From Ahaetulla prasina (Eukaryota; Chordata; Lepidosauria; Squamata; Colubridae), in NCBI RefSeq assembly GCF_028640845.1, contig NC_080542.1, positions 128,982,580 to 129,046,579 of the forward strand: a stretch of 64,000 nucleotides of DNA. The letters are read 5' to 3'. The notes under the pieces were generated by a model. That model saw only the letters and a list, made by a program, of their open reading frames with translations. It was not told where the DNA came from and searched no databases. The translations under genes and the position numbers were made by a program. Positions 1,264-37,438 of the stretch are shown piece by piece (position 1 is the stretch's first letter; each line of letters starts with the position of its first letter).

Positions 1264-1383
1264 ATGAAAAGTTATATGCACTATCTGAGAAGAAAGAACA
1301 CTTACTAGAAACTCTGGAATCTAAGGAGAAAGAATTAAAAGAAGCTGAAACTCTTGAAATTAGTCAACCAGGCATTGTCAGTG
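1264..1383 (+). CDS. CCDC7: CCDC7-like exon 1 in window (type B)
   Basis: 120 nt, phase 1-1, between a T-rich AG acceptor and GTATGT. It encodes a charged helix with KKEHLLETLESKEKELKEA and ends ISQPGIVS. The K-K-x-x-L-L-E-x-L-E core and the Q-P-G near the end define type B, repeated in exons 3, 5, 7 and 9. Confidence 0.85.
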
Positions 1384-1486
1384 GTATGTATGTAAAGATT
1401 TTCACACGTTCGTTGTTTGTAAATAAAAATTGTTTGTCAGATGTATTGCATTGTATCTTTTTGCTGTAAACTGCTTAGAGTCAGGA

Positions 1487-3040
1487 GAATTAAAGCAGTA
1501 TGAAATATAGTAATAATAATCTACTATACATGGATGACTTAAAAATATATGCGAAAAGCCCCACTGAAATTAAATCAATACCCAACACAGTTCAACTGTT
1601 CAGCAGCAACATCAAAATGAACTTTGGACTTGAAAAATGTGCTATATTATCCATGCAGGAAGGAAAAATGGAAAAAATAAAAGAAATAAAACTGGGAAAT
1701 GGAAGCATAGTGAAAGTATTAGCAAAGGATGACGGTTACAAATACCTCGATATATTGGAAGCAGATAATATCTTGAATGGAAAGATCAAAGAGTCAACAT
1801 AAAAAAAATACATTAGGAGGGTCCACAAAATATTAAAATCAAAGCTAAATTCTGGAAACATAATTAAAGCCATTAATAATACATGGGCAGTTCCAGTGAT
1901 ACGCTACCCAGCTGGAATCATCAACGGCTTTGGTTGAACTGGAAAACTTGGACTGGAAAACGTGCAAACTTTTGAATATGTACCATGCTTTATATCCACG
2001 AATGAAATCGTCAGGTTGTATCTGCCAAGAAAAATAGGGGGCAGAGGACTATTGCAAATCCATCAAACTGTAGAAGAAGAAAAACGAAGTTTGAATGACT
2101 ATGTGAATCAAAATACAGAAAAATTGCTGAAAGCTGTGAAACAGAGAACATTATAAAAACAACAGAAACAAAGGCAAAATATAAGGAAAAACAGCTGGAT
2201 GACAGATTAAATAGATGGAAAACTAAAGCTCTGCATGGACAGCACTTGAAAAACATTGAAGAAAAATGTAATGCCAACTTTACATGGGCTTAAGATGGGA
2301 ACCATTAAGAAAGAAATGGAAGGTTTAATACTCGCTGCTCAAGAACAAGCACTACAAACTAATGCCATGAAAGCAAAGATACAAAAATCTACTGACAATC
2401 CAAACTGCCATCTTTGCAAGAACAAAGTCAAAAGTCTTTCATATTTAATATGTGAATGCAGCAAAATCGCACAAACTGATTACAAAGCTAGACATGACCA
2501 AGCTGCTAAATTAATCCATTGGTAATTATGTAAAAAATATGGCTTACCTATATCCAAAAAGTCATGGGAACATAAAGTTGAAAAAATTATTGAAAATGAG
2601 AAGGTGAAGATCTTGTGGGACTTTCAAATATAGACAGATTGTCATTTGGAACACAACACGCCAGATATCACAGTTGTCGAAAACTGAAACATACAATTTA
2701 TTGATATCACGGTACCAGGAAATGCCAGAGTCGAAGAAAGAGAACTGGAAAAAAAATCACAAAATATTGTGACCTGGCCATTGAAATTACACAATTATTG
2801 ATGAAATAAGTAACAGTGATACTCACTGTCATCAGGATGGTTGGTACCATGTGCAAGAATTTTATAAAATACATCAAGAAATTGCAGCTTCCTGCAGTAA
2901 CACCAGTGGAACAGCAAAAAACTGTACTACTCGGAACATGGTACATCTTAAGAAGCTACTTGGTTGATACCTAGAATGTTATTTTTTTCTGTCATTGACC
3001 AATAAAAAATAGAATAAATAAAATAAACAGCACAAAACTA
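1487..3040 (+). mobile_element. R4/Dong-like non-LTR retrotransposon, 5'-truncated and decayed
   Basis: Fragments of a reverse transcriptase with a restriction-like endonuclease can be read in sense. The RT active-site box appears as LLYMDDLKIYAKS near 1525-1560, followed by a palm segment with FGLEKCAILS. Near 2400-2470 is a zinc-knuckle remnant, CHLCKNKVKSLSYLICECS, with Tyr where the family usually has His. Near 2660-2720 come PDITVV, a stop, then FIDITVPG: the PD...D core of the R2/R4-type endonuclease. The copy ends in a short AATAAA-rich tail. Several stops and frameshifts make it inactive. R4-clade elements are known from Anolis; R2/NeSL-like relatives are the alternative. Confidence 0.72.
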
Positions 3041-3865
3041 TCCTCTAACAAGAACTGTTAGCAACCATTTGTGGGCGAAGCTTACAAATAATGTAACCAA
3101 ATGTTGCTATTTTTAGAGAAATAAATTTAGCTTTGATGTTTTTTATTTAACAGTTATCAGAGTTCCCCAGATATTTAGATAAAAGAGGTGTTATCATCTG
3201 GTGGCAAACAGATGTATAATGAAAAATCTAGGCACAGACTTAAAATACTTTTGATGTTTGCTGGAATAAGACGATTTATATTATTAGAGAAAAATATTCA
3301 GTGAGTGCAAACTGAATTAACAGACTTTAATTGCAGCAGTTATTATTTCAAAAATAAGTTATTTCCAAAAATAAGCTTTTATTTCCAGTCCACATTTAAC
3401 TCTTGTTAGAAATTTGAAAATTATGGAATTAGCTTTTATTTCGTGGCCCATCACCTTTTCCCATTTCTAGATTATTCAAATTTTATGTATAGAGCGGTAT
3501 TTTAGTCAGGTGAGTGTATTATAAAATGGGCAATTATTTAAGATTGTAATGTATATAAAAATTGCTATGCCTTATCTTTAGTGGCAATGTCCAATTAGTC
3601 ACTGTTTTGATTAAACATTTTGAATGTGAAAAAGATCATCTCAAATCTTCTATAATATATCTTGAGATTAGTTCACTACCTATGTTTCCTAATACATGTA
3701 AATCAATCCAGCAATGAAGATGAAAAGGAAAAAATGATTAGAAATATTTAGTTGTGTTAATATGGAACATATTACCGTAGTCATCTATCTAGGGATGTTG
3801 TCATAGTAGATTATATAATTTCCATAAGATTGCAACCCTTGCATTCTATAATTTCAAATATTGCA
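3041..3865. other. Intronic AT-rich sequence, no recognised feature
   Basis: About 0.8 kb of AT-rich intron between the R4-like element and the L2 element. No exon with acceptor, frame and donor, and no repeat that I recognise. Confidence 0.5.
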
Positions 3866-6800
3866 GAACGCATGCGCGTTATGGCGGCGTTCTGAGCTTC
3901 GTGGAGACGGCAGCTGAGAATCCTTCGGGCCGCAATGCTGCTCTGCCGGCCGCCTGGCCGCTTGGTCCCCGGCTCCGGTTGTATGATCCTCCCGGCAGCC
4001 GAGAGCGAGGTCTTTGGTCCTTATTGAGCTCTCGGCTGCTGAGTTCGGAACCGGAGTCCTTGGGCAGCGGCGGATGGCGGCGGCCATGTTGGGGGGGGGG
4101 CGCGGGGAGACGCCCGGCCCGACTCAGCTGTTTGGCGGCCGCAATGCAGTTCCGCCGGCCGCCTGGCTGCTTGGTCCCGGCTCCGGTTGTGTGATTCTCC
4201 CGGCAGCCGAGACCGAGGTCTTTGGACCTCATTGAGCTCTCGGCTGCTGAGTGCGGAGCCGAAGTCGTTGAACAGCGGCGGATGGCGGCGGCCATGCTGG
4301 GGGGGCACGATGAGACGCCCGGCCTGACCCAGCTGTTTGGCGGCCGGTTTTCGGCCGCGGATGTCATCAACGGCTGGACCGCAGGTAACACCGGTGGTTG
4401 GAGTGGGGCCTGCACGGGCATGATTATTGCCCCTCCCCTTTCCTTCCTTCCTCCCTTCATGGCCCGGAACATCGTTCTTCCCCCCCACTGCTGACTTTTT
4501 GCCAAGGCCTGCCAAAAATGCCGTAATTTCACCAACGGCCTACATCTTTCCAGGTTGTTTTTTTCCATCGGCGACAGAGGTGGCTGGGCCTGGTTACTTA
4601 CAACAGCGGCACAGCGGCGCGCTGGAGCCTTGTTGGGCCCAGCGGTAAAATCTGGCGGCTGGTTGGCGGTGGTACGGACGGCGGTATGGACAGCACTGAC
4701 GGCACTGACGGCACTGGCGGCATAATCTCGTCCCGATTATCGTACCACACGGGTTTTTGTCCCGTGATGGTACGTTGCCGGGAACCCGAGGGAGATTTTT
4801 TATCCCGGCTATTGACTTTTTCCATCTTTGTAGCCGAGGAAACAACCAAGGGAAGGCTATTATGCCAACCTCCGAGGCGGAGGTCATTAGATCGGGATCG
4901 GACTTTCGGCCCCTTGGTTGTTTCTGGACCCTTTGGATTTTCTACGGACTATAACTAATATCATCGCCCGAGTGGCCAGTAATATGACTAATACCGGGTC
5001 GGACGAACTATCGGTACGACCGGAACATCTCCGCCGGTCAGGGATGGACATCCTTTCGCTGTATATTGACTATTTCCCATGAGATACTCGTTTGCCGAAC
5101 TACTACGACTGCGAGGTTCCCCGCCTGCAGGAATGGCCTCCAAATTATCGAGGGCTTACTTAACGAAGGGTCTTGGGACCCAGAGAGGTGGTATGCGGCC
5201 AAGAAGAAGTTGTGGGGTTTTTTAAATAGTTTTTTAAACAAGGGTTTTTTAAGGGGGGGGCGGGATTTGACGGGTGGGGGTGAGAACCCGTCGGGGGGGG
5301 ATCCAGCCCCTGTGCTAGTTCGCGACACTATTCCATCTTGTCTGAAGGCAGGGGGGGAGGACGTTCCAGGTTTAGAGGGTTGCTCGATCTATACGGTAAG
5401 TGGGAGAGGCAGATATGGCGGGGGGGAGGGGCCGTACCGAGTTGAGGGAGCACGCGTTCGATGTTTGAGAGCGATCACGTGCTCCGGCCCCTCAGTCCCT
5501 ACCCGTTCCTCGGGTGGCCATGATCCTCAGAGCTTGGATCTTCGGCTGATGTTATGTAATGCCCGGTCCGTGGTTAATAAGGCTCCCCTGATCTGCGATC
5601 TTATTCAGGGGGAGCCCGCGGCCCTTATGGGCATTACGGAACCCTGGTTGGGCCCAGAGGGGGGGGTCCCCCTTGTTGAGATGTGCCCTCCAGGTTCCCG
5701 AGCATTTCATCAGCCGAGGGCCCAAGGTAGGGGTGGGGGGGTGGCGGTTGTTATCAGGGAGGATCTAGAGCCGAGGGAGACCACTGTTCCTCAGATTGCC
5801 GGCTGTGAATCCCTCTATGTGCGGTGGGGCTATAGGAATCAGTTGGGCTTGGTGATCGCATACCTGGCTCCTTGCTGCGTGACCACAGCCCTGCCCGAGC
5901 TGTTGGAGGTACTCGCTGTGGCGGTTGAGACCCCAGACTTATAGTCATGGGGGACTTTAACCTGCCATCAGTTGGCTTGTCATCGACGGCAGCTCGGGAG
6001 TTCTTGGCTTCCATGACGGCCTTGGACCTGATTCGAGTAAATGATGGCCCTACGCACACGGGGGGAGGCACACTGGATCTGATTTATATCTCTGGACAGT
6101 GGTTAAATGATCTGGTGTTAGATGATTTAGTAACGGAACCAATGTCATGGTCGGATCATTTTCTCCTTCGCCTAGACCTTCGAACCGCCATTCACCACCG
6201 CAGGGAGACGGAACCTATACGGTGGTTCCGTCCCAGGCGCCTGATGGACCCCGAGAGGTTCCTGACGGAGCTTGGGCCATTCCCTGAGGAACTGGCCCAC
6301 GGCACGGCTGAGGAACTGGTCGTGGCCTGGGAACAGGCCGCGGCCGGGGCCTTGGACCGTGTCGCGCCTTTGCGGCCTCTGACCCGGCGTAGGTCTCGTC
6401 CGGCCCCTTGGTTCTCCGAGGGGCTGAGGGAGATGAAACGCCGGAGAAGACGCCTGAGAGCACCTGGAGGTCCAGTCGCCCGGTTGATCGGACACTAGTT
6501 AGATCCTACTCTAGGACCTACCTAGTGGCAATGAGGGAAGCGAGGCGTTCTTATGCCTCCACCCTCATTGCGCCGGCAGATAACCGCCCGGCCGCCCTGT
6601 TTGGGTGACCCGCCTCCTACATCAGGAGGTGCGGATGACCTTGCAGGGTCGAGCCGAGGAGTTTAGTGGTTATCTATACGATAAAATCGCTCAGCTGAGG
6701 GACGGTCTGGACCGAATTTGGGATGATCCAAGCGAGGGAGAGGAGGCACGTCTTGTTGAGCCCATTTGGGATGAGTTTGACCCTGTGGCTCCCGAGGACG

Positions 6801-8530
6801 TCGACAGGTTGTTGGGGAGGCTGCACGGCACGACATGTTTACTGGACCCGTGTCCTTCCTGGCTGGTACTGGCCACTCAGGCGGTGACACGAGGCTGGCT
6901 CCAGAGGATTATCAACGCTTTGTTGGAAGGGGTTTTCCCTGCCGCCTTGAAAGAGGCGGTGGTGAGACCCCTCCTTAAGAAGCCCTCCCTGGACCCAGCT
7001 ATTTTAGGTAATTATCGTCCAGTCTCCAACCTTCGCTTTGTTGCGAAGGTTGTAGAGAGTGCCGTGGCGCGACAGCTACCCCAATACCTGGATGAAGACG
7101 TCTATCTAGACCTGCTCCAGTCCGGCTTCCGACCCGGATACAGCACGGAGACAGCTTTGGTCGCATTGGTAGATGATCTCTGGAGGGCTAGGGACAGGGG
7201 TTATTCCTCTGCCCTGGTCCTATTAGACCTCTCAGCGCTCGATACCATCGACCATGGTATCCTGCTGCACCGGTTGGGGGATTGGGAGTGGAGGCACCGA
7301 TATCGGTGGTTCTCCTCCTATCTCTCCGACCGGTCGCAGACGGTGTTGACAGGGGGCAGAGGTCGACCGCGAGGGGCCTCACTTGTGGGGTCCCTCAGGG
7401 TCGATTCTCTCGCCTGCTGTTCAACATCTACATGAAGCCGCTGGGTGAGATCATCAGTGGTTTCGGGTGAGATACCAGCAGTACGCTGATGATACCCAGC
7501 TGTATTTTTTTCCACCCCGGCCACCCCAATGAAGTTGTTGAAGTGCTGTCCCGGTGTTTGGAAGCCGACGGGTCTGGATGGGGAGAAACAGGCTCAAGCT
7601 TAATCCTCCAAGACGGAGTGGCAGTGGATGCCGGCATCCCGATTCAGTCAGCTGCAGCCGCAGCTGGCTGTTGGAGGCGAGTTATTGGCTCTAAAGGATA
7701 GGGTGCGCAACTTAGGTGTCCTCCTGGATGATCGGCTGTCGCTTGAAGATCATCTGACGGCCGCTCCAGGAGGGCCTTCCACCAGGTTCGCCTGGTTCGC
7801 AGTTGCGCCTTCCTTGATCGAGATGCCTTATGCACAGTCACTCATGCGCTCGTTACCTCTCGCTTGGATTACTGTAATGCTCTCTACATGGGGCTCCTTG
7901 AAGTGCACTCGGAGGCTTCAGTTAGTCCAGAATGCAGCTGCTGGTGATAGAGGAGCTACTCGTAGCTCCCATGTAACACCGCCTCCCGCGCAGACTGCAC
8001 TGGCTGCCTGTGGCCTTCGAGTGCACTTTAAGGTGTTGGTTACGACCTTTAAAGCGCTCCATGGCTTAGGACCTGGGTACTTACGGGACCGCCTGCTGTT
8101 ACCACATGCCTCCCACCGACCCGTACGCTCCCATAGAGAGGGACTTCTCAGGGTGCCGTCCGCCAAACAATGTCGGCTGGCGGCCCCAGGAAGGGCCTTC
8201 TGTGGGGCTCCACACTCTGGAACGAGCTTCCCCCGGGTCTACGTCAAATACCTGACCTTCGGACATTCCGTCGCGAACTGAAGACACATCTCTTTATTCG
8301 CGCGGGGCTGGCCTAAATTGGATTTTTAATGGGAAATTTTATTAATTTTTAAACGGGGTTTTTAGTTTATGGTAATTTAATTTCAGGCTAATTTTAAATA
8401 AGTTTTTTAAATGATATTTTAACTTGTATATTTGTATTGCTGGTTTTATCTTGCCTGTACACCGCCCTGAGTCCTTCGGGAGAAGGGCGGTATAAAAATC
8501 AAATAAATAAAATAAATAAATAAATAAAAT
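3866..8530 (+). mobile_element. Near full-length L2-clade LINE, inactive
   Basis: The copy has a GC-rich 5' region with about two tandem monomers and then a decayed ORF2. APE-type endonuclease pieces are visible: LRLMLCNARSVVNKAP and MGITEPWLGPEGG near 5550-5660, MGDFNLPSVG at 5947, and GGGTLDLIY near 6065. RT follows with YRPVSNLRFVAK, SGFRPGYSTETALVALVDDL, and YADDTQ near 7480, now out of frame. The C-terminal domain (HFKVLVTTFKALHGLGPGYL) lies near 8010-8080. The 3' end has the hairpin CCGCCCTGAGTCC...GGGCGG and an AAATAAATAAAT tail. Frameshifts near 5944, 6500, 7435 and 7600 break the frame. L2 versus a close CR1-group clade was not tested. Confidence 0.88.
3915..4338 (+). repeat. Tandem 5' monomers of the L2 element
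   Basis: Two copies of a GC-rich unit of about 205-208 bp. GAGCTCTCGGCTGCTGAGT recurs 208 bp apart (about 4027 and 4235), as does the block with GCCGGCCGCCTGG and CTCCGGTTGT (about 3945 and 4153). A partial third unit begins near 4326 with GACCCAGCTGTTTGGCGGCC. Monomeric 5' repeats of this kind act as promoters in some LINEs; that role here is inference. Confidence 0.75.
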
Positions 8531-9092
8531 CAGCACTTAATTTCTCAAAAATTTAGGAAATTCCTTATTAACTATAGTAGAAAAAGATTAAGTACAAATG
8601 AAACAAAATAATAATTTTAAGATAATTGTACTAAAATAGCAACAGGATTATTTGCTTCTTATCCAAAAACATAACTGAATAGGGGCTAATAAGGAAACAG
8701 ATCTCACATCTTTTCTGATAATATCTTGAACTACAGTACTTATATGAATACCTACAAAGATGACTGCTCAAAAGATGGAGTTAATCATTTTTGAAGCTGG
8801 AGTTTTGAAAAGACATCTTTGTTTATCAAAATATGTATTCTGTTGGTAATAATACCTTTACAAATTTGAATATTAATATTTAATTGAAGGGGCTTCCACA
8901 GATGTAAAAGAAATTATTGAATCACTATTTATGGCTATTGTACAAATTAGAAATGTATTAGATATGTATTCAGAAAGCATTATATAAATCCATTTAGAAT
9001 AAAATAGCTAAATGATATTGTATGCAGTTATACTTAAGGTAATATTGCAGAATATATATTATTGTTTTGATTTGGCCTGCAATTATTTTTAG
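8531..9092. other. Intronic sequence, no recognised feature
   Basis: AT-rich intron between the L2 tail and the exon at 9093. The last 40 bp provide a T-rich tract for the acceptor. Nothing else recognised. Confidence 0.5.
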
Positions 9093-9218
9093 CACATAAA
9101 CTACAAGAACTAAATGAGCAAAGAAGACATTTAAGTGTAGAACTAGAGGCAACTGTATACGATATACAAGAAATAGAAGATCGTGCTTCCGAAGAAGCCT
9201 TAATGAGAAGATCTGAGG
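9093..9218 (+). CDS. CCDC7: CCDC7-like exon 2 (type A)
   Basis: 126 nt (42 codons), phase 1-1, TTTTTAG acceptor and GTAAGT donor. It encodes LQELNEQRRHLSVELEATV, then YDIQEIED. The pattern E-Q-R-R-x-L-x-x-x-L-E-A-x-V-x-D-I-Q defines type A, seen again in exons 4, 6, 8, 10 and 14. Confidence 0.92.
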
Positions 9219-10929
9219 GTAAGTGGAAAATAAATGTCTATATATCAGCACCTGCATATTTTTCAATGGCAGCAGCATGGAATAAAGTATGTAGCAGGTA
9301 GTCACTACTATTCTGTGTTTGGTCCTCAGATTCTCATCCAACAGGCTTGCTCCCTTTTAAAGAGGAGTCAACAGAAGGAACCTTCTTTAAGCCACTGCTG
9401 TGTGGTTGCAAAATATTTTGTAGATAAAGTTACTTATATTGTTGATAAAGCCTGATAAGATAACAAAAACTATATCTTGCAAGGTCACTTGGGATTCAGA
9501 AGTCAGTACAGTACAGCTTTTCAGAAGTCAGTACAACTCGTAGTACCATGAGTTTTATCAATTTAAACAAATGTAATTTTCCCCCTGGCACAAATAATGT
9601 AGAATTCTTTAAACAAGCCGTATTGAAATGAAATGGCTAGAATTACAAGAATTTCAGCAGTATTCCCCAATAAAAATTATATATTTCTTAAAGTGGTAAG
9701 ATGGTGCCTTTCATAAATTCTCTCATCGGGGTTTGATACATCAAAATATACCTCTTGTAGTTGCAGAGAATTGACTTGTGTAAGTATTGCAAATAAAATT
9801 GTTGTGGAAGCCAAAGTTTATGAACCTTACTTGAAACTTCTTAGGATTAGTATAACAGTAGTTTTTCAAGTGAATAAAATATTCCAATCTACCCCTTTTA
9901 TACCTAAAATTCAAAATAAGTTTGATTTTATTCTCTTCCCCAATAGGGACAGCTGATTTTTTCCTGTTATTTTACATTCATTTGAGGTCATATTCCCTGT
10001 GAGGCAAGATATCTATGATTAGTGGGAGGGTGGTTCTCCTAGACTCAGGCTCCTTCTTGTTCAGCAGATGGAGGCACCAGCTTGAAGAGCTTTTGCTCAG
10101 CTTTAGTTGGTGTGCCACTTAAAGCTTTGTGAAATTGGAAAGCCCTAATTGCAGAGATTCATGCTTTTATTACCACATGATTAGAGTATAGTAATACCAT
10201 CTATGCGGGGATATTTTTGAAGAAGATCCAAGCTGCATTTGGTCCAGAATTTGATGACCCAGCTGCCGATGGAACAGGCCACTTCAGCAGTATAACTTGT
10301 GGGCTGAATTCACTCCTTTTTTTACTAATAACTTTCCTGACACAAGTACTTATAAATCTGTACATGTTTCCGTTTTATTTATCTTTAATATTATTTCTCT
10401 GGGCTAAATTCAGCCTATAGTTTAAGATTGTCTGTGGAGAGGATGCTTAGAGCCCTAACATACAAGAAGTTAATAAATCAGATATGTTATTTGTCTTCAA
10501 CATTGTGGAACAGCTTACCCACTGAGTTTTGGTTGATCTCACTGAATTTTTTGAAGGTTTTGAAAAACGTTTTATTATTACAAAAAACATTTGGGTTTGG
10601 CTAATGCAAATAGAGATTTATTTGTTAATCCTTTTCTCTTTCTAATTGCATGGATTTTTTTGATGTTTTTGTTGTGAAGCTTGGTGGTCACAGAGGAAAC
10701 ATGTTTTGGACAAACCTGAGCTGGATAATTGAGAATCTCCATAGATGTTGCAGAGGGAGGCGTTTTGAGTTATTTTAGTTTTTTATTTCTTGTAATCAGC
10801 CTTGATTTGATCAGATAGTGATAAATAGGCATAAAAAATATGTGAGAAATCAAGATTTTACCCGGAAATTTTGAATATAAGCAAATGAAACAATTTTCCA
10901 AAATAACTGTAAATCATTATTGTTTATAG
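9219..10929 (+). other. Intron with a faint L2-like remnant
   Basis: Intron between exons 2 and 3. Around 10500-10590 the plus strand reads LWNSLPTEFW then SLNFLKVLKNVLL, resembling the C-terminal end of L2/CR1-type ORF2, so an old decayed LINE is likely. The rest shows no recognised feature. Confidence 0.4.
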
Positions 10930-15453: not shown

Positions 15454-17440
15454 TAATTTATTGGTCAAGTGTGATTGGACACACAAGGAATTTGTTTTGG
15501 TGCATATGCTCTCAGTATACATAAAAGAAAAAGAAAAAAAATACCTTCATCAAAGGTACAACATTTACAACACAAATGATGGTCATAGGTTGCAATTTAA
15601 CCCTTAATGATAGCAACAAAAAGTTACAGTCATACAGTCATAAGTGGCAAGAGATTGGTAATGAAAATGATGAGAAGATTAATAGTAGTGTAGATTTAGT
15701 AAATAGTTTGACAGTGTTGAGGGAATTATTTGTTTAGCAGAGTGATGGCTTTCGGGAAAAAACTGTTCTTGTGTCTAGTTGTTCTGATGTGCAATGCTCT
15801 GTAGCGTTGTTTTGATGGTAGGAGTTGAAACAGTTTATGTCCAGGATGTGAGGGATCTGTAAATATTTTCACGGCCTTCTTCTTGGTTCGTGCAGTATAC
15901 AGGTCCTCAATGGAAGGCAGGTTGGTAGCAATTATTTTTTCTGCAGTTCTAGTTATCCTCTGAAGTCTGTGTCTTTCTTGTTGGGTTGCAGAACCAAACC
16001 AGACAGTTATAGAGGTGCAAATGACAGACTCAATAATTCCTCTGTAGAACTGGATCAGTAGCTCCTTGGCAGTTTGAGCTTTCTGAGTTGGCGCAGAAAG
16101 AACAGTCTTTGTTGTCCTTTTTTGATGATGTTTTTGATGTTAATTGTCCATTTTAGATCTTGAAATATGATAGGACCTAGAAATTTGAAGGTTTCTACTG
16201 TTGATACTGTGTTGTCAGGTATTGTGAGAGGTGGAAGTATGGAAGGGTTTCTCCTAAAGTCTACCACCATTTCTACAGTTTTGAGTGTGTTCAGTTCCAG
16301 ATTGTTACTGTCGCACCACAAGGCTAGTCGTTCGACCTCACATCTATATGTGGATTCATCATTGTCTCGAATGAGACCAATCACTGTTGTGTCATCTGCG
16401 AACTTCAGTAGTTTAACAGATGGATCATTGGAGATGCAGTCATTGGTATACAGAGAGAAGAGAAGTGGGGAGAGCACACAACCTTGGGGGGCCCCTGTGC
16501 TAATTGTACAGGTATCTGAAGTGATCCTGCTTAGCTTTACCTGCTGCTTCCTGTTTGTTAGGAAGCTTGTGATCCACTTACAAGTCTGTTCAGGTACTTG
16601 TAGCTGGTTTAGCTTAGTTAGAAGAGTATCTGGAATGATGGTATTGAATGCTGAACTAAAGTCTACGAAGAAGATCCTTACATAGGTCTTTGGAGATTCA
16701 AGATGTTGTAAGATGTAATGCAGAGCCATATTAACAGCATCATCTATTGATCTATTTGCTCGGTATGCAAATTGCAAGGGGTCTAACAGCGGATCCGTGA
16801 TGGTTTTCAAGTAGAAAAGCACTAGCCTTTCAAAGGCTTTCATGACTACAGATGTTAAAGCAACTGGTCTATAGTCATTCAGTTCCTTCTTCGGCACTGG
16901 GATGATGGTAGAGCGTTTGAAGCAAGAAGGAACATAGCGCATCTCTATTAATTTATTGAAGATATGGGTGAAGATGGGGGCCAATTGGTCAGCACAGACT
17001 TTTAAGCAAGAAGGAGTTATCTTGTCCGGGCCTGGAGCTTTTCCTGGCTTTTGTCTGTGAAATAGGTCCTGCACTGCCTTTTCTATGATCACTAGAGGTT
17101 GTGAACCCAATGGGATGGGGTCAGTTGTAGGAGGCTTGGCTGTTGTTGGTGTGTCTGAGATGGGTGTTATGGAGATAGGTGGCTGTAGTTTCCCTTCAAA
17201 CCTGCAGTAAAACACGTTCAGGTCATCTGCCAGTTTCCTTCAGCCAGGGAGGGAGGTTTGCCATAGCTGGTGATATTTTTAAGAGTTTTCCACATGTTTG
17301 CTGGTTCATTTGCTGAAAATTGATTCTTTAGCTTTTCAGAGTAGCTTCTTTTTGCTGCTCTGCAGCCTCCAAGTGATATCCTTTAGTTATGTGAAATTTT
17401 CTTTAGGCCTATGTATTGTGCATCTGAAGAATCTGTGGTG
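15454..17440 (-). mobile_element. L3/CR1-group LINE with AATAG tail, RT largely open
   Basis: The minus strand at 17215-16055 has 386 open codons of reverse transcriptase. Visible motifs: RQKPGKAPGPDKITPSCLKV, LNDYRPVALTSVVMKAFERL, DPLQFAYRANRSIDDAVNMA, IFFVDFSSAFNTIIP, STGAPQGCVLSPLLFSLYTN and LLKFADDTTVIGL. The D-D pair of the FADDT box is intact. Upstream, 17440-17220 still reads weakly as the domain before RT; downstream, 16055-15460 is the decayed C-terminus and 3' UTR. The tail, (ATTCT)n in element sense, fits the CR1-L3 'Snake1' type; Rex1/Babar-like is an alternative. Confidence 0.85.
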
Positions 17441-20161: not shown

Positions 20162-20281
20162 AAAGAGATTTGGAAACACTTCATCAGAAGAAGCAAATGT
20201 TTTTGGAATGTTTGGAGATAAATTTAAACAACCTTCAAGAAGCACAGACTGTTGCAGTTACTCTTCCAAGCAGAATAAATG
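20162..20281 (+). CDS. CCDC7: CCDC7-like exon 5 (type B)
   Basis: 120 nt (40 codons), phase 1-1. It encodes LETLHQKKQMFLECLEINL, then NNLQEAQTVAVTLPSRIN. Its donor GTTGGT at 20282 is unusual among these exons; a GTATAG four bases downstream would break the frame. Confidence 0.88.
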
Positions 20282-22305: not shown

Positions 22306-22425
22306 AACAGCTTTTGGAAGAACTATGTGAACAAAAAGAATTGTTATTAGAAAAGTTGTCATCAAATCTGAAAGACTTGAAGCAAGCGCAGGCTCTTGCA
22401 GCTGCTCAGCCAGGCAGTATTAATG
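22306..22425 (+). CDS. CCDC7: CCDC7-like exon 7 (type B)
   Basis: 120 nt (40 codons), phase 1-1, strong T-rich acceptor and GTAAGT. It encodes LLEELCEQKELLLEKLSSNL, then KDLKQAQALAAAQPGSIN. It shows the clearest type B end (A-A-Q-P-G-x-I-N), matching exons 1 and 5. Only 462 bp from exon 6, the closest A-B pair. Confidence 0.93.
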
Positions 22426-23974: not shown

Positions 23975-23975
23975 A

Positions 23976-24029
<54 letters not shown>

Positions 24030-28223: not shown

Positions 28224-28245
28224 GTAAGTAATTAATTTTTAGTAT

Positions 28246-28392: not shown

Positions 28393-28568
28393 AAAAATTT
28401 CTGATGACAAAAATAATTCTTAGTGTCCACCATTTCTTTGGTGTAGGGAAACATCCAACAATAGTTAATTCTCCTTGTAGCCTAGGAGAGCAGGAATCAT
28501 ATTTTAATTATTTTAAACTCTAGGCTTGATGAAATGGGATTAATCTTTCCTTTCTCATAAGGGTCTTC

Positions 28569-28928: not shown

Positions 28929-29507
28929 GGGCCTTCAATTATTCTGGTGCAGTTTTCTGCAAACCTCTGCAGGGAGAATTAGGAATTGATAAAAATAATT
29001 GCCCCCATTCTTTCTCTGATGACAGGATTCCTTCTCTCACTATAAATCATATAGCTAGAATTAGAACTGGCATTTCAAATCTTTCTCTATTTCTGTATTG
29101 CCATTTTTGTATGACAAAAGGATCCAGCAAACTTCTCACTTGCTTTTTAACCTCCCAAAGAGATAGGCATTTTACTAGAAGAAGAGGGTAGCAGTACATA
29201 GATCAACTCTTGATATACTTCTGATCTACTTAGAATTTCTTATGCTACTGTTTGTTCCAGCTATTATAAAGTCTTACACTTTTTCCAAATTTCTGATTGC
29301 TCAATCAGCATTGAAGTGATGCATTGCTGCTCTTGAATTTTTGGTTTTTTTTGTAAACATTACTTATGATATTGTTAGTTTAATGTGTTTTATTTCAATT
29401 GTTTTTAATATATTACATCCTAATCTCTAGATTCTGCCTTCCAGTCTATTTCTATGGAGTACATTTCTAAAAAGTTTAATAGTAACACGGATGCTCCTTT
29501 TATGCAG

Positions 29508-29633
29508 AACAGATAATGCAACAATTAGCTGAGAAGAAAATAATATTGTTTGACAATCTGGAGGGAATTATTCAAGCTATAGAACAAGAACAAAACTTAG
29601 ATTTAGAAAAAGGTTTGAAGAAAAGATCTGATG
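29508..29633 (+). CDS. CCDC7: CCDC7-like exon 10 (type A)
   Basis: 126 nt (42 codons), phase 1-1, TATGCAG acceptor and GTAAGT. It encodes IMQQLAEKKIILFDNLEGII, then QAIEQEQNLDLEKGLKK. Same 42-codon length as the other full type A exons. Confidence 0.92.
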
Positions 29634-29689
29634 GTAAGTGTTTAAAAAAAAATTGTAGGGTAATCTATTAATATTAACTGACCTAGAAA

Positions 29690-30056
29690 GAATATTGACT
29701 AACCTGAGCACAACCAAGGCCCCCCCCCAAACAGAACACACCTCCATCCAATCGGAGCACAGCCAACCCCACCATCCAATCAGAGCACAGCCAAATCCCC
29801 AACCAATCAGAACGCACCTCCACCCAATCAGAACACAGCCAAGCTCCCAACCAATCAGTTCAAACCCCCACTAGCAGTTAAAAGGAAGAAACAGCTGCGA
29901 TCACACATTGCTCCTAGAAGCACGAAGCTGTAAACACCAGCCTGAAGATGACGAATGAGACTTCGTCGAAACGTCGCCAAGACACTTCCAATCTTACACG
30001 GGAGAAAACCCGAACAACCAAAGACCTATATACAAACACCCGTGAAAACCTCAGAA
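29690..30056 (+). mobile_element. Penelope-type terminal repeat, second copy
   Basis: Same sequence as 18770-19085: CCAAT-box array at 29748-29862, GCTCCTAGAAGCACGAAGCT, then CTGAAGATGACGAATGAGAC, TTCGTCGAAACGTCGCCAAG and the AAAACCCGAACAACC end. The left inverted end is missing. It lies only 57 bp downstream of exon 10 and is followed by a short TA repeat. Confidence 0.75.
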
Positions 30057-30203
30057 AACATATATATATATATATATATAGTTACGTTTCTTTTGCTTTG
30101 TTGAGAAATGCAGATATAAAGATTTCTTTGCTCTTTGCTCAACTTTACTTTTAAATGCAATATTTTAACCAGAAATTGAATATGTGCATTTCTAAATTTC
30201 TAG

Positions 30204-30305
30204 AGAGAGAAATACATGAGCTGCTAGTGTTTTCAGCACTAGATTCAAAATGTTATGAACTGGAAGAAATGGGAACTCTTCCCTATAATCAGCTGGATGT
30301 TATCA
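30204..30305 (+). CDS. CCDC7: CCDC7-like exon 11 (degenerate type B)
   Basis: 102 nt (34 codons), phase 1-1, TTTCTAG acceptor and GTAAGT. It encodes REIHELLVFSALDSKCYEL, then EEMGTLPYNQLDVI. By position it is type B, but the K-K/R-R and N-L core is lost. Confidence 0.85.
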
Positions 30306-30487
30306 GTAAGTACAGAATTAAGTGCTGAAGCATGTACAATATTTCATGATGAAAAAAAGTTCTTTAGAAGATAACCTATACAGTCACAAGCTATTTAATG
30401 AAAAAAAATATTTATTTAAGAAAATTGCTATTATAAAAAAGTATCTTAAATACATTGTTTCTTTTATTGTCATTTATTGTAATCTAG

Positions 30488-30586
30488 AACGGAAAGTGCA
30501 CAATCTAAAAGAACAAAGAAAGCGTTCATTTGATAGACGTCGTTTAGTTTATCCCAAAGAGCATCCAACAGAAAATATGCTTGAGA
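30488..30586 (+). CDS. CCDC7: CCDC7-like exon 12 (degenerate type A)
   Basis: 99 nt (33 codons), phase 1-1, GTAAGT donor. It starts with the type A head VHNLKEQRKRSFDRRRLV but its second half (YPKEHPTENMLE) lacks the helix core. Intron 11 is only 182 bp. Confidence 0.86.
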
Positions 30587-30622
30587 GTAAGTATGAACAG
30601 TAGTATAATATTAAGTTAGAGG

Positions 30623-30996
30623 TAGCCCTTGACTTACAACCACAACTGGCTCAAAATTTCCATTGCTAAGCAAGACAATTGTTAAGTGATTCTTGCCCCA
30701 TTTTATGACTTTTCTTGCCACAGTTGTTAAGTGAATCCCTGCAGTAACATTATGGTTAAGTGAATCTGCTTTCCCCATTGACTTTGCTTGTCAGAAAGTC
30801 GCAAAAGGTGATCACATGATTCCAGGGCACTGCAGCTGTCATCAATACGAGCCAGTTGCAAATGCCCAAATTTTGATCAGTGACCATGGGGATTCTGCAA
30901 CAGTCATAACTATGAAAAACGGTCATGAGTCACTTTTTCAATGCCATTGTAACTTTGAACAATCACTAAATTGAACTGTTGTAAGTAAAGGAGTAC
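30623..30996. mobile_element. 369-bp-type MITE, copy 2 (inverted)
   Basis: The reverse of the 26041 element: starts TAGCCCTTGACTTACAACCA and ends AACTGTTGTAAGTAAAGGAG plus TA. CAAAATTTCCATTGCTAAGC and TTGCCACAGTTGTTAAGTGA match the first copy on the other strand. Confidence 0.75.
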
Positions 30997-31887
30997 CAGT
31001 ATTTGTATAAAATGTAATGTATAAAAATGAATCCAGTAGCCATCAAGTTCAACCTAGCAATCAAATTTCTGCTTTTTATAATCTTGAATTAGTTGTGGAC
31101 CATCTCAATAATTTGGAACTCTTTTTAGAACACCCTCCCCCATACACAATGATTTTGTATTGGTAACATGATGACATAATGGCCCATAGAAAATAGTTTT
31201 AGCTTTTTCATTCTGCTAATCCTGAAAAGATAATTTGGAATATTATTAGGTGTCTTTGGAGAATGTAAGCTCTGAAAATATGTCACTTTCATATGGACAT
31301 TTATTATTTTTGGGGTATATGTTATTTTTCATAAGACGTGCTCACAAAATATACAAGGATTATCAATTATTTTTTAATAATGGAAATTTCCAAGGTAAAT
31401 ATATGATGGAAATTATTGAAAACTTCCAAGTGGAAAGACTGATCTTGATCACCCTCCCTTCGTTAGAATTGGTTTATAGAAAAACAAAAATGGAAAAACA
31501 AGTTTGAAGAACAAGTTGGCTAAATGAGAAGTAAATAAATACAAACAAATATGTTAATAGTGAAGCTTTTTTGAAAGTCACAATCACTTGCTCGTAAGAC
31601 CCTATATTTTAAAATAAACTCTTAAAAAATCTTGAGGATTAATTTAAAAGGGGGAAGGAAAATAACATATTTTACATCTAAAAGCACTTAGTTTTGCTGA
31701 AGGAGTTCCATACTGTGCAATAGTGGATGAGAAGTAGAATTAGCTGAGAGAACAATAAGCTTTTTTTTTTTATTAAGAGTAAAAAACTGCATGTAACAGT
31801 GGTAAACATGGCTCTTCTTATGGTACATGGTATTATTATCAATACATATCATGCGAATTTAAGTAATAATTGTTCTTTTATTCTTAG
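30997..31887 (+). other. Intron 12 remainder, no recognised feature
   Basis: AT-rich intron. An open stretch at 31250-31507 shows no splice sites in frame with the gene and no family resemblance, so it is taken as chance. Confidence 0.45.
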
Positions 31888-32001
31888 AGCAAAAAGAAGC
31901 ACTAAAAGAATTTCTCCAACAAAGAAAACATCTGTTTTCATATCTGCGATCAAGTATTGAAAATCTGCAACAAAAAAGCATTGCTTGGCAAGATATGTCT
32001 G
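31888..32001 (+). CDS. CCDC7: CCDC7-like exon 13 (type B)
   Basis: 114 nt (38 codons), phase 1-1, TTCTTAG acceptor and GTAAAT donor. It encodes ALKEFLQQRKHLFSYLRSSI, then ENLQQKSIAWQDMS. The core has diverged but the length and end fit type B. Confidence 0.88.
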
Positions 32002-32239
32002 GTAAATTCAATGTTGTTATTTCTGGTTATCATTTTTTGGATTTTTAAGAGTTTCTTTTCAAGGTAAAACCTTGCATGGCACAGGTTTTAGCTACTTGAT
32101 GAACCATTTTGTGCTGCTAGGACAAGCCTGTCCCACTCATGCTGGCAGGGAAAGCCTGCTATGGATTCTGTTAGTTAGGGATTTCCAGCTGTCAGAATCC
32201 AGAAAAAGAACACTTTTGCTGTAGTGCCTGCCTGCTAGG

Positions 32240-33110
32240 AACAAAGTTCACATCCCCCCACTCCCAGGTGAGGTCTGACCCCCATCCTCCTGTCCTTCCA
32301 TTAGAGCTTGAAGACTTAGCTGTGCCTGTTGGCTTAGGGACCCAATGGGAATTATCACATTGGAGATGACAGTTAGATTAATAGCAGATCCCACCTCTCC
32401 CAGGCAAGTTGCTGTTCCCTGTCCATCTTTTAATCATATTGTTATATTTTTACTGTTTATTTTTATTTTCCTTGTTTTCCTGTATTTGTAATTTTTTTAA
32501 TTTTAAATTTTTACTTTTATAAGCCATTCAGAGTAGTCCCGTGATGAGATGTGTGGCAAATATATTTAATACATTAAAAAAAATGCTTCTGTTGTCTAGT
32601 GTTTATTTATGCAGGTTGCTGCAAATTTGCTCTATAGTTTTCAAGTGATATTAAAGACTAGAGCTTCCTGCAGCAGTCCAGTCAGATGATGATGAGAACA
32701 TGACTTAAAGTTCTGCCCTAGATAGGATTCCAGTTGACATACAATTTCGAGCCATGCTCTAAAAGATAAGCTCCATCAGTCAGTTCAGTCTTTGACTCTA
32801 GAAGGACTCCCAATCCCAGTCCTGCTCTCTTTCTTGTTACAAGACTGGAAGAAACAAGATAATCTCAATGAACAAATACAGTAGCAAAAACTTCTAATTT
32901 GGATTAACTTTCAATTTATTTTTACCCATTCGGCCTCCATCAGTGTCCAAATAGACTAGACTGAACAAACACTAGCAGCTCAGATACAATTGGGTATCAT
33001 CAGTATACAGCTTGTATACCACTTGTATTGACCTCTAACTACCCTCCCATGACTATCTCAATAACTTTACCTAGAAAGGAAGATCAGAGACAGGGTAAGT
33101 TTTCAATGTT
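32240..33110. mobile_element. Decayed L2-group fragments, both strands
   Basis: Near 32455-32580 a plus-strand tail resembles the L2 end (AAGCCATTCAGAGTAGTCCC). Near 32965-33020 the minus strand reads VYKLYTDDTQL, an RT active-site box like YQLYADDTQL of the intact L2 copies. Boundaries are uncertain. Confidence 0.5.
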
Positions 33111-33302
33111 GCTTGGATGCAAAGATGACCTTTTTTTGTCTCATATAATTCCCGTTAGCTTTACAATTATGTATGTGTAATTTTCACAAATTCTGAAAAA
33201 AAAAACTTTTGAAGTTTTGTTAAATTCACACATGTACAGGCAAATGTGTATACGTACATATGTACATATATATATATTTGTACATCTGCTTGATCTTTAT
33301 AG

Positions 33303-33413
33303 ATGAGAACATAGCAAAACAAAGATCTTTGGCTGCAAAATTACAAGCAAATATGAGAGATATACAAGCTGCTTTTGAAAAAACACAGAAAATAGAAAAG
33401 TCCAGAGTTGTTG
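33303..33413 (+). CDS. CCDC7: CCDC7-like exon 14 (type A)
   Basis: 111 nt (37 codons), phase 1-1, TTTATAG acceptor and GTAAGA donor. It encodes IAKQRSLAAKLQANMRDIQ, then AAFEKTQKIEKSRVV. Retains the Q-R-x-L...L-x-A-x-x-x-D-I-Q spacing of type A. Confidence 0.9.
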
Positions 33414-34039
33414 GTAAGAACAATGCAAAAGCAATACAGCATAAAAGTATTTTTATACAATTCATTAGATTTCCCTGTAGTTTTTGAAAACAAAGTATAA
33501 ATAATTGCTCTAATTTGATTTTAGGTAGTCAAATCTTGCTTATCATATTGTAGAAAGGCACAGCTTCTTAATCCCAAATGATCTATGGCAAACTTCTTCC
33601 TTGTGCGCATATCCTCTTTCATACCTAGGAGGAGAAGTGCCTTTTAGTTTTCAATAATTTTTGTCTTCTGTGATATCTGCTTGAGAACTGTTTGGTTTAA
33701 AATGCTCTAAAACTTCAGTCTATTTGGAAACATTTTTAGTGACAACAGAAAAATCAGTGACAAGAAAATGAAGGACAGACAATTCTTGCTATAGCTTGGC
33801 AGTTAGTGAGGAGAGCAATGTAAGAAAGAGGAGAAAATTGTAAGAATTTTGTGTATTGGCTGTTTTTGTGGCCCAAGACCAATAATAAATATATAGGGAA
33901 CCATTTAACTAAGTTATAACAAAACTTAAAAAGTTAATATAAATGGAATCAGGGATAGAAAAACTAATAAAGGCAAAGCAAGCTGAGTTCAGCAAGCAGA
34001 GGATTACATGACTTTATATCTAGAGCAGTTCAGACCTGA
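33414..34039 (+). other. Intron 14 left part, no recognised feature
   Basis: No exon or repeat recognised before the minus-strand LINE that begins near 34040. Confidence 0.45.
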
Positions 34040-35525
34040 GAAGATTAAGTTGGATATAATGAAAGGAAACAATACAACAGGAACAATAGGCATGCTTGTG
34101 CTCTTATGCATGCCCCTTACAGACCTCTTAGGAATGGGGTGAGGTCAATAGTAGATAGTTTTTGGTTACAGCTTTGGGAATTTTGGGAAGAGACCAGAGT
34201 CAGGTAGTGTATTCCAAGTATTAACAAACTGAAGTCATATTTTCTGCAATCAAGATTGGAGCGGTTAACATTAAGCTTAAATCTATTGTGTACATGTGTA
34301 TTGTTGCAATTGAAGCTGAAGTAGTCTTCAACAGGAAGGACATTGTAATAGATGATTCTATGAGTTAAATTCAGGACATGTCGAAGGCAGCGTAATTCTA
34401 AGTTTTCTAAACCCAGGATTTCAAGTCTGGTGGCATAAGGTATTTTGTTGTATTCAGAAGAGTAGAGAACTCTTCTTGTAAAATATTTCTGGACACGTTC
34501 AATTTATTGATGTCTGAAATGTGGTATGGGTTCCAGACAGTCGAGCTATATTCAAGAATTGGTCTAGCAAATGTTTTATATGCTCTGGTTAATAGTGTAG
34601 TGTTTCTGGAGAAGAAGCTACGCAAGATTAGGTTTACAACTCTTAAAGCCCTTTTTGCGATGTAGTTACAGTGGGCTTTAGTACTTAGATAATTTGATAG
34701 GAAAACTCCAAGGTCTTTAACAGGATGGGGGTCATCTGAAAGGTAATGTCCATCGAGCTTATATTTAGTGTTTTGATTCTTTTTTCCAATGTGTAAGACA
34801 GAGCATTTGCTGGTTGAGATTTGGAGTTGCCAGGTTTTTGACCATTCTGACACAAAGTCAAAGTCTTTTTGAACGGTAGCTGTATTGTTGGTGGTGTTAA
34901 ATAGTTTGACATCGTCAGCAAAGAGAACACAATTACTTATAATATGGTCACAGAGATCATTAATGTATAATATGAAGAGTGTTGGTCCAAGAATGCTGTC
35001 TTGGGGAACGCTGCTTTTGACAGGAACAGGATTTGATATAGCACTGCCAATTTTGACCACTTGTTGTCTGTTTGACAGGAAAGCTGTTATCCAATTGTGA
35101 AGGGGTCCTGAGATGCCATAGGATTTTAGTTTTAGAAGAAGTTTGTCATGTACCACTGAGTCAAAAGCTTTATAGAAGTCTATATAAATTGCATCTATTG
35201 CTTTGCCTTGGTCAAGATTTGTAGTCTATATGTTTTTGCAATGAAGAAGTTGTAAATTACATGATAAATTTTTTCTGAAACCAAATTGTTTATTAGAGAG
35301 TAGGTTGTTTGTTTCTAGGTGGAGGGTAATGGATTGGTTGATGATAGATTCCAGTACTTTGCAGGTGACGCAGCATAGAGAGATTGGTCTGTAATTTTCA
35401 ACTAGGCTGGGGTCTCCTTTTTTGAAGACAGGGATGACCGTGGCTAGTGACCAAAGTTTGGGAAGGGAACTGGTCATGAAAGCTTTTTTGAAGATTATAA
35501 GTTCATGAGTCTTGAAGACCCGGCA
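34040..35525 (-). mobile_element. CR1-group LINE, RT and C-terminus, copy 1
   Basis: The minus strand reads LATVIPVFKKGDPSLVENYR and LLSNKQFGFRKNLSCNLQLL, then after a break YGISGPLHNWITAFLSNRQQ, GPTLFILYINDLCD, CVLFADDVKLFNTTNNTATV and RAYKTFARPILEYSSTVWN. The F-A-D-D box is intact. The QDSIL stretch is QGSVL in the 42.4-kb copy. 5'-truncated, with a frameshift near 35200. The clade within the CR1/Jockey group is not fixed. Confidence 0.85.
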
Positions 35526-35954
35526 ATAAACAATGTAACTACTGAAAATAATGTTACTTAGAAAACTCTTTTACAGAATGATATTTAATTGGGGCAGTAC
35601 CTTCTTGTAAAAAATTAAATATGAAAGAAAATAAAAAATAATACATCCAGAAGTATGTCTTTATTATTCATATGTTCTTTTTTTAATACTTTGGAGAGCC
35701 AAGATCCAAATCAGAACCTTGTTCTATGATTGTTTTCCAAGAATGATACAGTTATTATTCACATTTCTCTGAGGAAGATACTAATTTATATGTATTATAG
35801 AAAAATTATTTTTGTTTTTAAGATTTTTGAATTATTTTGATTTTTTTAATCTGGGATAAGAGTATAGGACAAAATACAAATACAATATTTCAATCTTGCG
35901 TACTGCCTTAATGTTCTGTGATGCCATTCAGAAGATGTAGCAAATATATGGGTA

Positions 35955-36316
35955 AAAAGGTAAAGATAAAGGTTCCCATCGCACATACGTGCTAGATGTT
36001 GCCGACTCTAGGGGGTGGTGTTCATCTCCGTTTCAAAGCCGAAGAGCCAGCGCTGTCCGAAGATGTCTCCATGGTCATGTGGCCGGCATGACTCAACACC
36101 AAAGGTGCACGGAACGCTGTTACCTTCCCACCAATGGTCCCTATTTTTTATACTTGCATTTTTACGTGCTTTCGAAACTGCTAGGTTGGCAGAAACTGGG
36201 ACAAGTAACAGGAGCTCACCCCGTTACACGGCAGCACTAGGGATTTGAACCGCTGAGCTGCCGACCTTTCGATTGACAAGCTCAACGTCCTAGCCCCTGA
36301 GCCACCGCGCATCCCT
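35955..36316 (-). mobile_element. Sauria-type SINE, copy 2
   Basis: Same structure as the 19.7-kb copy. On the minus strand: GGGATGCGCGGTGGCTCAGG (A-box-like), a degenerate B box, TGCCAACCTAGCAGTTTCG, CATGCCGGCCACATGACC and a CTTTATCTTTACC tail. Confidence 0.88.
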
Positions 36317-37324
36317 TGTAATATATGGGTAGTATACCTCAACATATGACTGGTTGTTTAACGACCAATCAGAGTTATATTAAATTCCCAAAAGCTACTT
36401 AAGACCCAGTTTCAAATTTACAGTGGCTGCTACACCCTCACAGTCATTTGTCCTTAATGATGATTGCAGGGATGCTGCAGTAGTCACCCACCCACCCATT
36501 CCACACCACTGAGACCCTGCCCAAGGCAGATCAGGCTGTCTATAAGTGGGTGTGAATTAGCTGGAGCTTGCAAGCCTCCATCTTCCTTCTCATCCAGTAA
36601 CCAAGGATCATGGTGGCTGCAGTTTGCAAACCTCCAGTTTCTTTCCCATCCAAGGACTTACGGAACCCATCCAAGGACTTACGGACTTACGGAGCCCAGC
36701 AACACCCCACTGATCTTTCTGTTTTTTTGCAGCTTCTGAGAGAAGGCATCTAGCCTGACACAGGGTCAGCTTTTTTTACAGACCTAACCTCATGGCAAAG
36801 TATGTGTTATTCTTGCAAAGTGGTAACAGGCTCCCTTTTCAAGGCAGCTGCATAAACCTGTGCCTTTTAATAAATGTAGCTGGAAAAGGGTGCTACTAGA
36901 TTTCTGATATTTTGGCCATCATATAGTGACAAGGATCTCTTCCTATATTGTCTTATATTTGATAGAAAATGTGGAGGAGGAAAAGAGTAGCAGAATTAAT
37001 GAAAATTCATAATGAAATTAGAATGTGACAGAAGATCATTGCAAGAAGGATTCCTACCCAATGAAATAGATAAACTAATACCTTAATGCATGTATGCTGT
37101 CTACCAGACATGTGAAACAACAGAAGTCAATTGGAAAAACACCAATATAATGTCTTCTGGCCATTATAGGTCACTGTTATGTATCAATGCAACCTTTTTA
37201 AATAAGCATTCTTATTACTCAGGGTCAACTGAATTGGCAAATAATTGCTACCAAGCTTGTTGAATTATTTTATTTGAAAACATACTAAGATTTTTATTCT
37301 TTTCTTGACATATTTGAATAACAG
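36317..37324 (+). other. Intron 14 right part
   Basis: Around 36640-36690 is a short local duplication of CATCCAAGGACTTACGGA. The rest shows no recognised feature before the exon 15 acceptor. Confidence 0.4.
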
Positions 37325-37438
37325 AATCAAGGCAACAATTTCAACCACTAATTAGTCAGAAGACTACTGTAACTCAACCGTCATATCACCAACTATTGAT
37401 GGCAAAAGTTTCATCTCTACAAATAACCAAAGCTCCTA
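37325..37438 (+). CDS. CCDC7: CCDC7-like exon 15 (last of the alternating series)
   Basis: 114 nt (38 codons), phase 1-1, AACAG acceptor and GTAAGT. It encodes SRQQFQPLISQKTTVTQPS, then YHQLLMAKVSSLQITKAP. V-T-Q-P recalls the type B end, but the helix core is gone and the sequence turns S/T/Q-rich. Confidence 0.86.

Follow-up and report, generated by a model that had tools for sequence, protein, structure and literature searches.

An alternating array of two exon types in CCDC7 of a vine snake, Ahaetulla prasina, very probably amplified from an ancestral exon pair

We analysed a 64,000-nucleotide stretch of the Ahaetulla prasina genome (contig NC_080542.1, positions 128,982,580 to 129,046,579; hereafter the window), which, to judge from its sequence, carries the 3' portion of this vine snake's CCDC7. 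Very probably, an ancestral pair of exons, B followed by A, each beginning and ending in phase 1, was amplified in squamate CCDC7 and now forms an array of helical units. The gene is assigned to CCDC7 because of the N-terminal BioT2 domain of its product, the names of some of its orthologues and its neighbour, ITGB1; the original prediction, made from the letters of the window, of a CCDC7-like gene is thus supported. Joined, the 15 exons named in that prediction encode 580 residues without a stop, all 580 of which are identical to residues 1932-2511 of P0042, a 2726-residue NCBI protein model of the same species that bears the name "golgin subfamily A member 4". BioT2, the Pfam domain (PF15368) by which CCDC7 is defined, was found in P0042 with 111.9 bits (E value 3.9e-32, cut-off 27), and the N-terminal 400 residues were 51% identical to Mauremys CCDC7 and 35% identical to horse CCDC7. 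No Pfam domains of the golgin, myosin or other families that lend these proteins their database names were found, P0042 and P0036 giving BioT2 alone at E 0.001. The CCDC7 label is carried, in NCBI or UniRef, by the orthologues of Pantherophis, Vipera, Liasis, Pogona and Paroedura. Misleading names are widespread among the other reptile orthologues (golgin A4, golgin B1, girdin-like, myosin-8-like, lava lamp, rootletin, interaptin, plectin-like, MLP1, A-kinase anchor protein 9), because such names track the coiled-coil bulk of the protein and overlook CCDC7.

All 15 exons start where they had been predicted to start. Each is open, is 99-126 nucleotides long, has AG/GT borders and phase 1 at both ends, and has a length divisible by three; all 15 are thus symmetric. 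Seven more 3' exons extend the P0042 coding sequence to a stop at 56798-56800 on the plus strand, and the 22 exons together reproduce residues 1932-2726 exactly. CCDC7 introns of the window are at phase 1 in 21 consecutive cases and at phase 0 for the last alone. A generic splice-site scan run at fixed thresholds returned 20 candidates, with five of the 15 exons among them, and was replaced by direct reading of the borders together with the predicted NCBI model, from which exon order and joining were taken. P0042 is itself an Ahaetulla prasina model, and its match therefore represents agreement with the annotation and no independent proof of expression.

The original prediction divided the exons into two paralogous types, and this division was upheld for the ten exons between 1264 and 29633. 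Their A/B labels ranked first among the 126 possible five-to-five splits (score difference of 24.4, versus 14.5 for the runner-up), and the observed A/B difference was reached by 168 of 20,000 label shuffles. With all 15 labels, 23 of 20,000 shuffles reached the observed difference, a result largely driven by the ten clear exons. Profiles of the two types, seeded with these ten exons and iterated on 12 squamate proteins, ranked them, across all six frames of the window, as the top matches to their respective types (35-66 bits). These first profiles were trained in part on the exons under test, and the window was therefore rescanned with snake-free profiles, for which nine lizard proteins were the sole source. 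The ten exons scored 22-65 bits, each higher with its own type, while the top match outside the array and tail exons in the six frames was 6.9 bits. An invented unit consensus and the translation of the 15 exons, searched against Pfam, gave only matches under the curated cut-offs. Exon lengths, said to be mostly 42 codons for A and mostly 40 for B, were exactly 42 codons in four of the seven exons labelled A and exactly 40 in three of the eight labelled B, so that "mostly" was generous for B.

Labelling all 15 exons as A or B was rejected, the last five being weak or unmatched. The exon at 31888, predicted to be of type B, fits A better (16.1 versus 13.7 bits with the first profiles), and the exon at 33303 is weakly A-like (12.2 versus 8.2 bits); lizard-only profiles point the same way in both cases (Table 1). 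The exon at 30204 reached 4-6 bits to B at most, and those at 30488 and 37325 were not among the matches listed with either profile set; the labels of these three may well reflect chance coiled-coil resemblance. Lizards, Candoia (a boa) and Liasis (a python) possess an extra stretch of exon size between their counterparts of the 31888 and 33303 exons; it is absent from Ahaetulla and five other caenophidian proteins (the region was readable in these six; the motif used did not resolve Vipera and Crotalus). No relic of a stretch lost between 32001 and 33303 was detected in positions 31801-37500, the top match being on the minus strand with E 0.15. With this stretch absent here and the 31888 exon scoring as A, the "strict" B-A-B-A order of the original prediction is not established at the degenerate end. 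The 3' tail of CCDC7 diverges fast, with 75% identity to Pantherophis compared to 91% for the array part.

The Ahaetulla array runs far past the window, with 20 B and 19 A units at a threshold of 10 bits. Nineteen full-length squamate proteins were available; after exclusion of two isoforms (P0033 and P0048), the remaining 17 were found to hold 25-45 units. Six caenophidians and the python had 18-20 A units each; elsewhere the number was 18 in Rhineura, 16 in two agamids, 16-22 in four lacertids, 21 in Hemicordylus, and 11 and 13 in two geckos. In turtles, where six of eight proteins were counted, there were 11-12 units in three Pelodiscus isoforms, six in Mauremys, five in Caretta and three in Eretmochelys. 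The alligator protein had seven units (four in another isoform; three further isoforms were uncounted), and that of emu six. Isoform choice and annotation gaps may depress some of these counts. No A or B units were found in four mammalian CCDC7 proteins (three from Equus, one from Erinaceus), in which the best real match to a broader profile at low threshold, 0.7 bits, lay under several shuffled controls. Mammalian and sauropsid CCDC7 are 31-36% identical over the N-terminal 400 residues, and in a comparison of the horse and hedgehog proteins with six sauropsid ones (blastp, E of 0.1 or less, low-complexity filter) similarity ended at about residue 410. On these predicted proteins, squamate CCDC7 is much longer than that of turtles, alligator, emu and the few mammals compared. 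An origin of the units in the ancestor of amniotes was considered and rejected: four mammalian proteins from two genera, with amphibians absent from the sample, do not distinguish a gain in sauropsids from a loss in mammals.

An array of this size could be a bank of alternative exons, mutually exclusive or widely skipped, instead of a constitutive long scaffold. The symmetric phases permit skipping, and in four of eight comparisons of predicted isoforms (Elgaria twice, Sphaerodactylus and Pogona) what is missing is exactly A (41 residues, Elgaria), A+B (81 residues, Elgaria and Sphaerodactylus) or A+B+A (128 residues, Pogona); in a fifth, between Pelodiscus isoforms X4 and X5, one unit is swapped for another stretch. 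The longest models of the 17 squamates nevertheless include 25-45 units, and 38-39 of the 39 Ahaetulla units have in-order reciprocal best matches in each of five caenophidians. Long models are indecisive on this point, though, because annotation pipelines tend to prefer long forms. We consider an exon bank unlikely.

Repeated duplication of an A+B unit, as originally proposed, is supported by two analyses. In the 17 squamate proteins, contiguous neighbouring units alternate in 569 of 599 pairs, and the alternation exceeds that of all 2000 unit-order shuffles in 16 of the 17 proteins. In a tree of 249 units from ten species, built by a fast method, the 218 labelled squamate units required three changes between A and B, compared to a mean of 72.7 and a minimum of 61 in 500 label shuffles; the tree thus separated the two types, as the original prediction required. 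When 16 of 18 turtle units were labelled by position, the number of changes still stood at three. Pelodiscus units are all B by profile, but their neighbours in the tree are alternately squamate B and squamate A units. As the turtle units, too, divide between these two groups, the A/B pair should predate the divergence of squamates and turtles, subject to the cautions about labelling given below. Had exons been duplicated singly, with the A and B characters arising repeatedly or being sorted by selection for alternation, no cassette would have been inherited. The nine internal AA or BB neighbours among the 599 pairs are in line with such a history, but the three changes on the tree, the placement of turtle units next to the same two groups, and recent copies spaced by one, two or three entire cassettes make it very unlikely.

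Comparison of Ahaetulla with the python revealed 31 reciprocal unit matches, 30 of them in order, and with nine other squamates 6-16 reciprocal in-order units were left. Out of the 111 pairs with these nine, 49 fall in the ten units of the window, above their share of the array (10 of 39); the window therefore seemingly holds an older and better kept part of the array, the middle having turned over. Recent duplicates are 0.89 identical in Podarcis and Hemicordylus and 0.90 identical in Sphaerodactylus, and close unit pairs two cassettes apart were seen in Podarcis, Lacerta and Rhineura. Identity among six cassettes of Pelodiscus reaches 93-100%, apparently through a separate expansion in the softshell turtle, unless they are an assembly artefact. 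Two further observations were made on individual arrays. In the Pelodiscus models P0021-P0024 there is an extra 40-residue segment whose place varies with the predicted isoform, and the copied unit there may hold three exons, the third mostly skipped. In Ahaetulla, several mid-array A units within P0042 residues 905-1433 measure about 45 residues and have ends resembling ERTTFIQPSEKE; the cassettes of this region are the most alike within the species (0.62-0.64) and are perhaps a younger burst common to python.

Decay of the Ahaetulla gene into a pseudogene, or its being an artefact of annotation, is highly improbable: although the proteins are misnamed and the 3' tail evolves fast, all 22 exons are open and have splice sites, identity over the 580 residues is 85-91% in Pseudonaja and Pantherophis, array order is the same among the caenophidians compared, and the frame is retained as far as geckos. 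Least credible of all, and largely refuted for the ten clear exons, is chance likeness of unrelated coiled-coil exons through heptads and charged residues: scores between A and B do exceed composition shuffles (z of about 3-9), as those of generic coiled coils would, and the doubtful tail labels fit, but the gap between array exons and the rest of the window, the first rank of the split, the unit tree, the near-identical copies in lizards and turtle, and the uniform phases do not.

We propose that a symmetric pair, B of about 40 codons and A of about 42, would have existed before squamates and turtles diverged. In squamates, repeated duplication, mostly by the pair or multiples of it, would have given about 11 to 22 cassettes per gene, with unequal crossing-over inside introns as the likely source of copies. 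As all exons would share phase 1-1 (read in the window, extrapolated upstream), gain, loss or skipping should leave the frame intact. Each exon would correspond to one helix of about 30-37 residues and a short turn, a B+A cassette probably to a helical hairpin or to a stretch of kinked coiled coil, and the whole array to an elongated helical scaffold, the length of which may depend on lineage and track the number of cassettes.

Large hydrophobic residues at positions 4, 7, 14, 18 and 25 are common to the 143 B units of 40 residues and 68 A units of 42 residues from ten squamate proteins, and position 36 of B units is proline in 92%. AlphaFold2 models of fragments from Naja (P0001) and Python (P0008) had a mean predicted local distance difference test score of 70.4 and 70.9, respectively, and contained mostly one helix per unit; eight of ten helices in the Python model were 34-37 residues long. 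Helix breaks coincided with unit joints in 13 of 16 cases in the Naja model and seven of eight in the Python model, where the predicted template modelling (pTM) score was just 0.30 and 0.27, respectively. The modular coiled-coil rod of the original prediction is a weaker point: the units have a heptad-like leucine pattern, but helices end at most joints in both models, although with the low pTM just given. A proven rod was rejected as a description of the structure. A search of solved structures by sequence with the Python fragment gave no matches at E 0.1. The top fold matches, a synthetic tetrameric building block (E 0.28) and the F-BAR domain of srGAP2 (E 0.017), were disbelieved in view of the low pTM.

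In mammals, CCDC7 is listed among boar sperm phosphoproteins (PMC8322956), and this, together with the name of the Pfam family, makes a structural function in the male germ line or in sperm likely, by analogy with mammalian CCDC7 alone. A placental study, which places CCDC7 in the cytoplasm of human trophoblast (PMC10971223), and a review in which it appears under the name Biot2 as a cancer/testis antigen (PMC10311965) suggest that its role may extend beyond the testis. A more speculative scheme, in which we place little confidence, is that sauropsid CCDC7 follows a plan of one exon per helix and one cassette per hairpin, cassette number being an evolvable setting of length in a sperm or spermatid structure. 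Under this doubtful scheme, the setting would be steady at about 19 cassettes in caenophidians, shifting in lacertids, low in geckos and re-amplified in the softshell turtle.

Several points weigh against an amplified ancestral pair as we have described it. The joining of exons into a single transcript comes wholly from database protein models, and the phases were read for introns of the window. Labels of squamate units in the tree were derived from profiles of the same sequences, labels by position were assigned to turtle units after their tree neighbours were known, and with units of about 40 residues the fast tree method tested the A/B split alone. Thirty of the 599 neighbour pairs do not alternate; 21 of them are BB pairs at the start of the array, and the nine internal ones, AA or BB pairs in Pseudonaja, Liasis, Pogona, Phrynocephalus, Lacerta, Zootoca and Hemicordylus, indicate that single-exon events or annotation gaps occur. 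In Paroedura, alternation merely ties with the best of 2000 shuffles. Duplicated intron DNA between cassettes was not found in positions 1-38500 (repeats of at least 60 nucleotides, 14-nucleotide seeds), where the scan returned eight repeat families, none spanning an array exon; this would be expected of old copies, since the median identity of Ahaetulla cassettes is 0.37. The low pTM values mean that the models do not fix packing, and a fold search yielded no solved structure resembling either model at E 0.001, which makes the hairpin a guess. Finally, the function of CCDC7 in snakes is inferred only, by analogy.

Downstream of the array, CCDC7 on the plus strand and ITGB1 on the minus strand lie tail-to-tail, with the final ITGB1 coding exon at 59788-59723 facing the CCDC7 stop; the human genome has the same arrangement. 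A second ITGB1-like tail (NPIYKSPINNFKNPNYGRKAGL and a stop) occurs at 63772-63704 on the minus strand, upstream of the common tail on the ITGB1 strand, and looks like the alternative muscle-type beta-1D tail. Introns of CCDC7 contain four reverse-transcriptase open frames (RVT_1, Pfam) of elements resembling long interspersed nuclear elements, at 16058-17215 (-), 34410-35156 (-), 42470-43327 (+) and 46084-47361 (+).

Table 1. CCDC7 and ITGB1 coding exons in the window, with the evidence for each.
Feature	Position	Strand	Evidence
B exon, 40 codons, end QPGIVS	1264..1383	+	splice sites, phase 1-1; B 53.7, A 11.8 bits (lizard-only profiles)
A exon, 42 codons	9093..9218	+	splice sites, phase 1-1; A 64.9, B 11.1 bits (lizard-only profiles)
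B exon, 37 codons	10930..11040	+	splice sites, phase 1-1; B 27.9, A 6.6 bits (lizard-only profiles)
A exon, 42 codons	13726..13851	+	splice sites, phase 1-1; A 45.3, B 15.4 bits (lizard-only profiles)
B exon, 40 codons; donor GTTGGT weak-looking, yet used by the NCBI model	20162..20281	+	splice sites, phase 1-1; B 55.6, A 10.9 bits (lizard-only profiles)
A exon, 40 codons	21724..21843	+	splice sites, phase 1-1; A 41.5, B 12.0 bits (lizard-only profiles)
B exon, 40 codons, end QPGSIN	22306..22425	+	splice sites, phase 1-1; B 59.7, A 23.2 bits (lizard-only profiles)
A exon, 42 codons	25422..25547	+	splice sites, phase 1-1; A 44.5 bits, B none among matches listed (lizard-only profiles)
B exon, 36 codons	28116..28223	+	splice sites, phase 1-1; B 43.7, A 5.6 bits (lizard-only profiles)
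A exon, 42 codons; final clear array unit	29508..29633	+	splice sites, phase 1-1; A 22.4, B 13.8 bits (lizard-only profiles)
Tail exon, 34 codons; degenerate-B label unsupported	30204..30305	+	in NCBI model; top match B 5.5 bits, E 1.9
Tail exon, 33 codons; degenerate-A label unsupported	30488..30586	+	in NCBI model; none among matches listed
Tail exon, 38 codons; unit-like, A rather than B	31888..32001	+	A 15.9, B 10.1 bits (lizard-only profiles)
Tail exon, 37 codons; weakly A-like	33303..33413	+	A 13.9, B 10.6 bits (lizard-only profiles)
Tail exon, 38 codons; degenerate-B label unsupported	37325..37438	+	in NCBI model; none among matches listed
CCDC7 3' exon, non-repeat, phase 1-1	38324..38422	+	match to P0042
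CCDC7 3' exon, non-repeat, phase 1-1	38820..38915	+	match to P0042
CCDC7 3' exon, non-repeat, phase 1-1	39817..39939	+	match to P0042
CCDC7 3' exon, non-repeat, phase 1-1	45628..45717	+	match to P0042
CCDC7 3' exon, non-repeat, phase 1-1	48596..48694	+	match to P0042
Penultimate CCDC7 coding exon, phase 1 to phase 0	55069..55118	+	match to P0042
Last CCDC7 coding exon, including stop TGA	56711..56800	+	match to P0042
ITGB1 last coding exon, 21 residues and stop, convergent with CCDC7	59723..59788	-	solved integrin beta-1 chains matched, E 1.1e-08

Nebulin, titin and obscurin are long modular muscle proteins with tandemly duplicated exons. Squamate CCDC7 resembles them in being a long modular protein with tandem exon copies, and differs in that they are muscle proteins of other folds. 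Nebulin and obscurin are among the tandem-exon-duplication genes named in one study (PMC9013439). With mammalian CCDC7/BioT2 the squamate protein shares the homologous N-terminal 400 residues and the BioT2 domain, while its array has no counterpart in the three Equus proteins and the Erinaceus protein. Tandem duplicated exon substitution (PMC9741552) likewise involves tandem exon copies but uses one copy per isoform, whereas CCDC7 models include nearly all copies. The closest parallel is piccolo b of teleosts, in which a zinc-finger exon is reported to have been amplified 8 to 16 times, more than once independently (Nonet 2012, PMC3484663). In both cases a short exon of a conserved gene was amplified in one vertebrate lineage, repeatedly and with species-dependent counts; unlike the single zinc-finger exon, gained and lost singly, CCDC7 has alternating pairs of helix exons, up to 45 units, mostly paired. 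Because of this parallel, the kind of event is already known. The openly licensed literature searched, largely at listing level, yielded no description of the CCDC7 array; what appears to be new is the gene affected, the cassette of two exons and how widely it occurs among reptiles.

If our reading is true, CCDC7 provides a clean vertebrate example of a two-exon module whose copy number often changed across squamates while its internal order was kept, with old, steady arrays in snakes, fresh copies in Podarcis, Hemicordylus and Sphaerodactylus, and a turtle array that seems to have expanded separately. The duplication events could then be dated and counted, and it could be asked why the pairs persist and whether array length follows sperm size.

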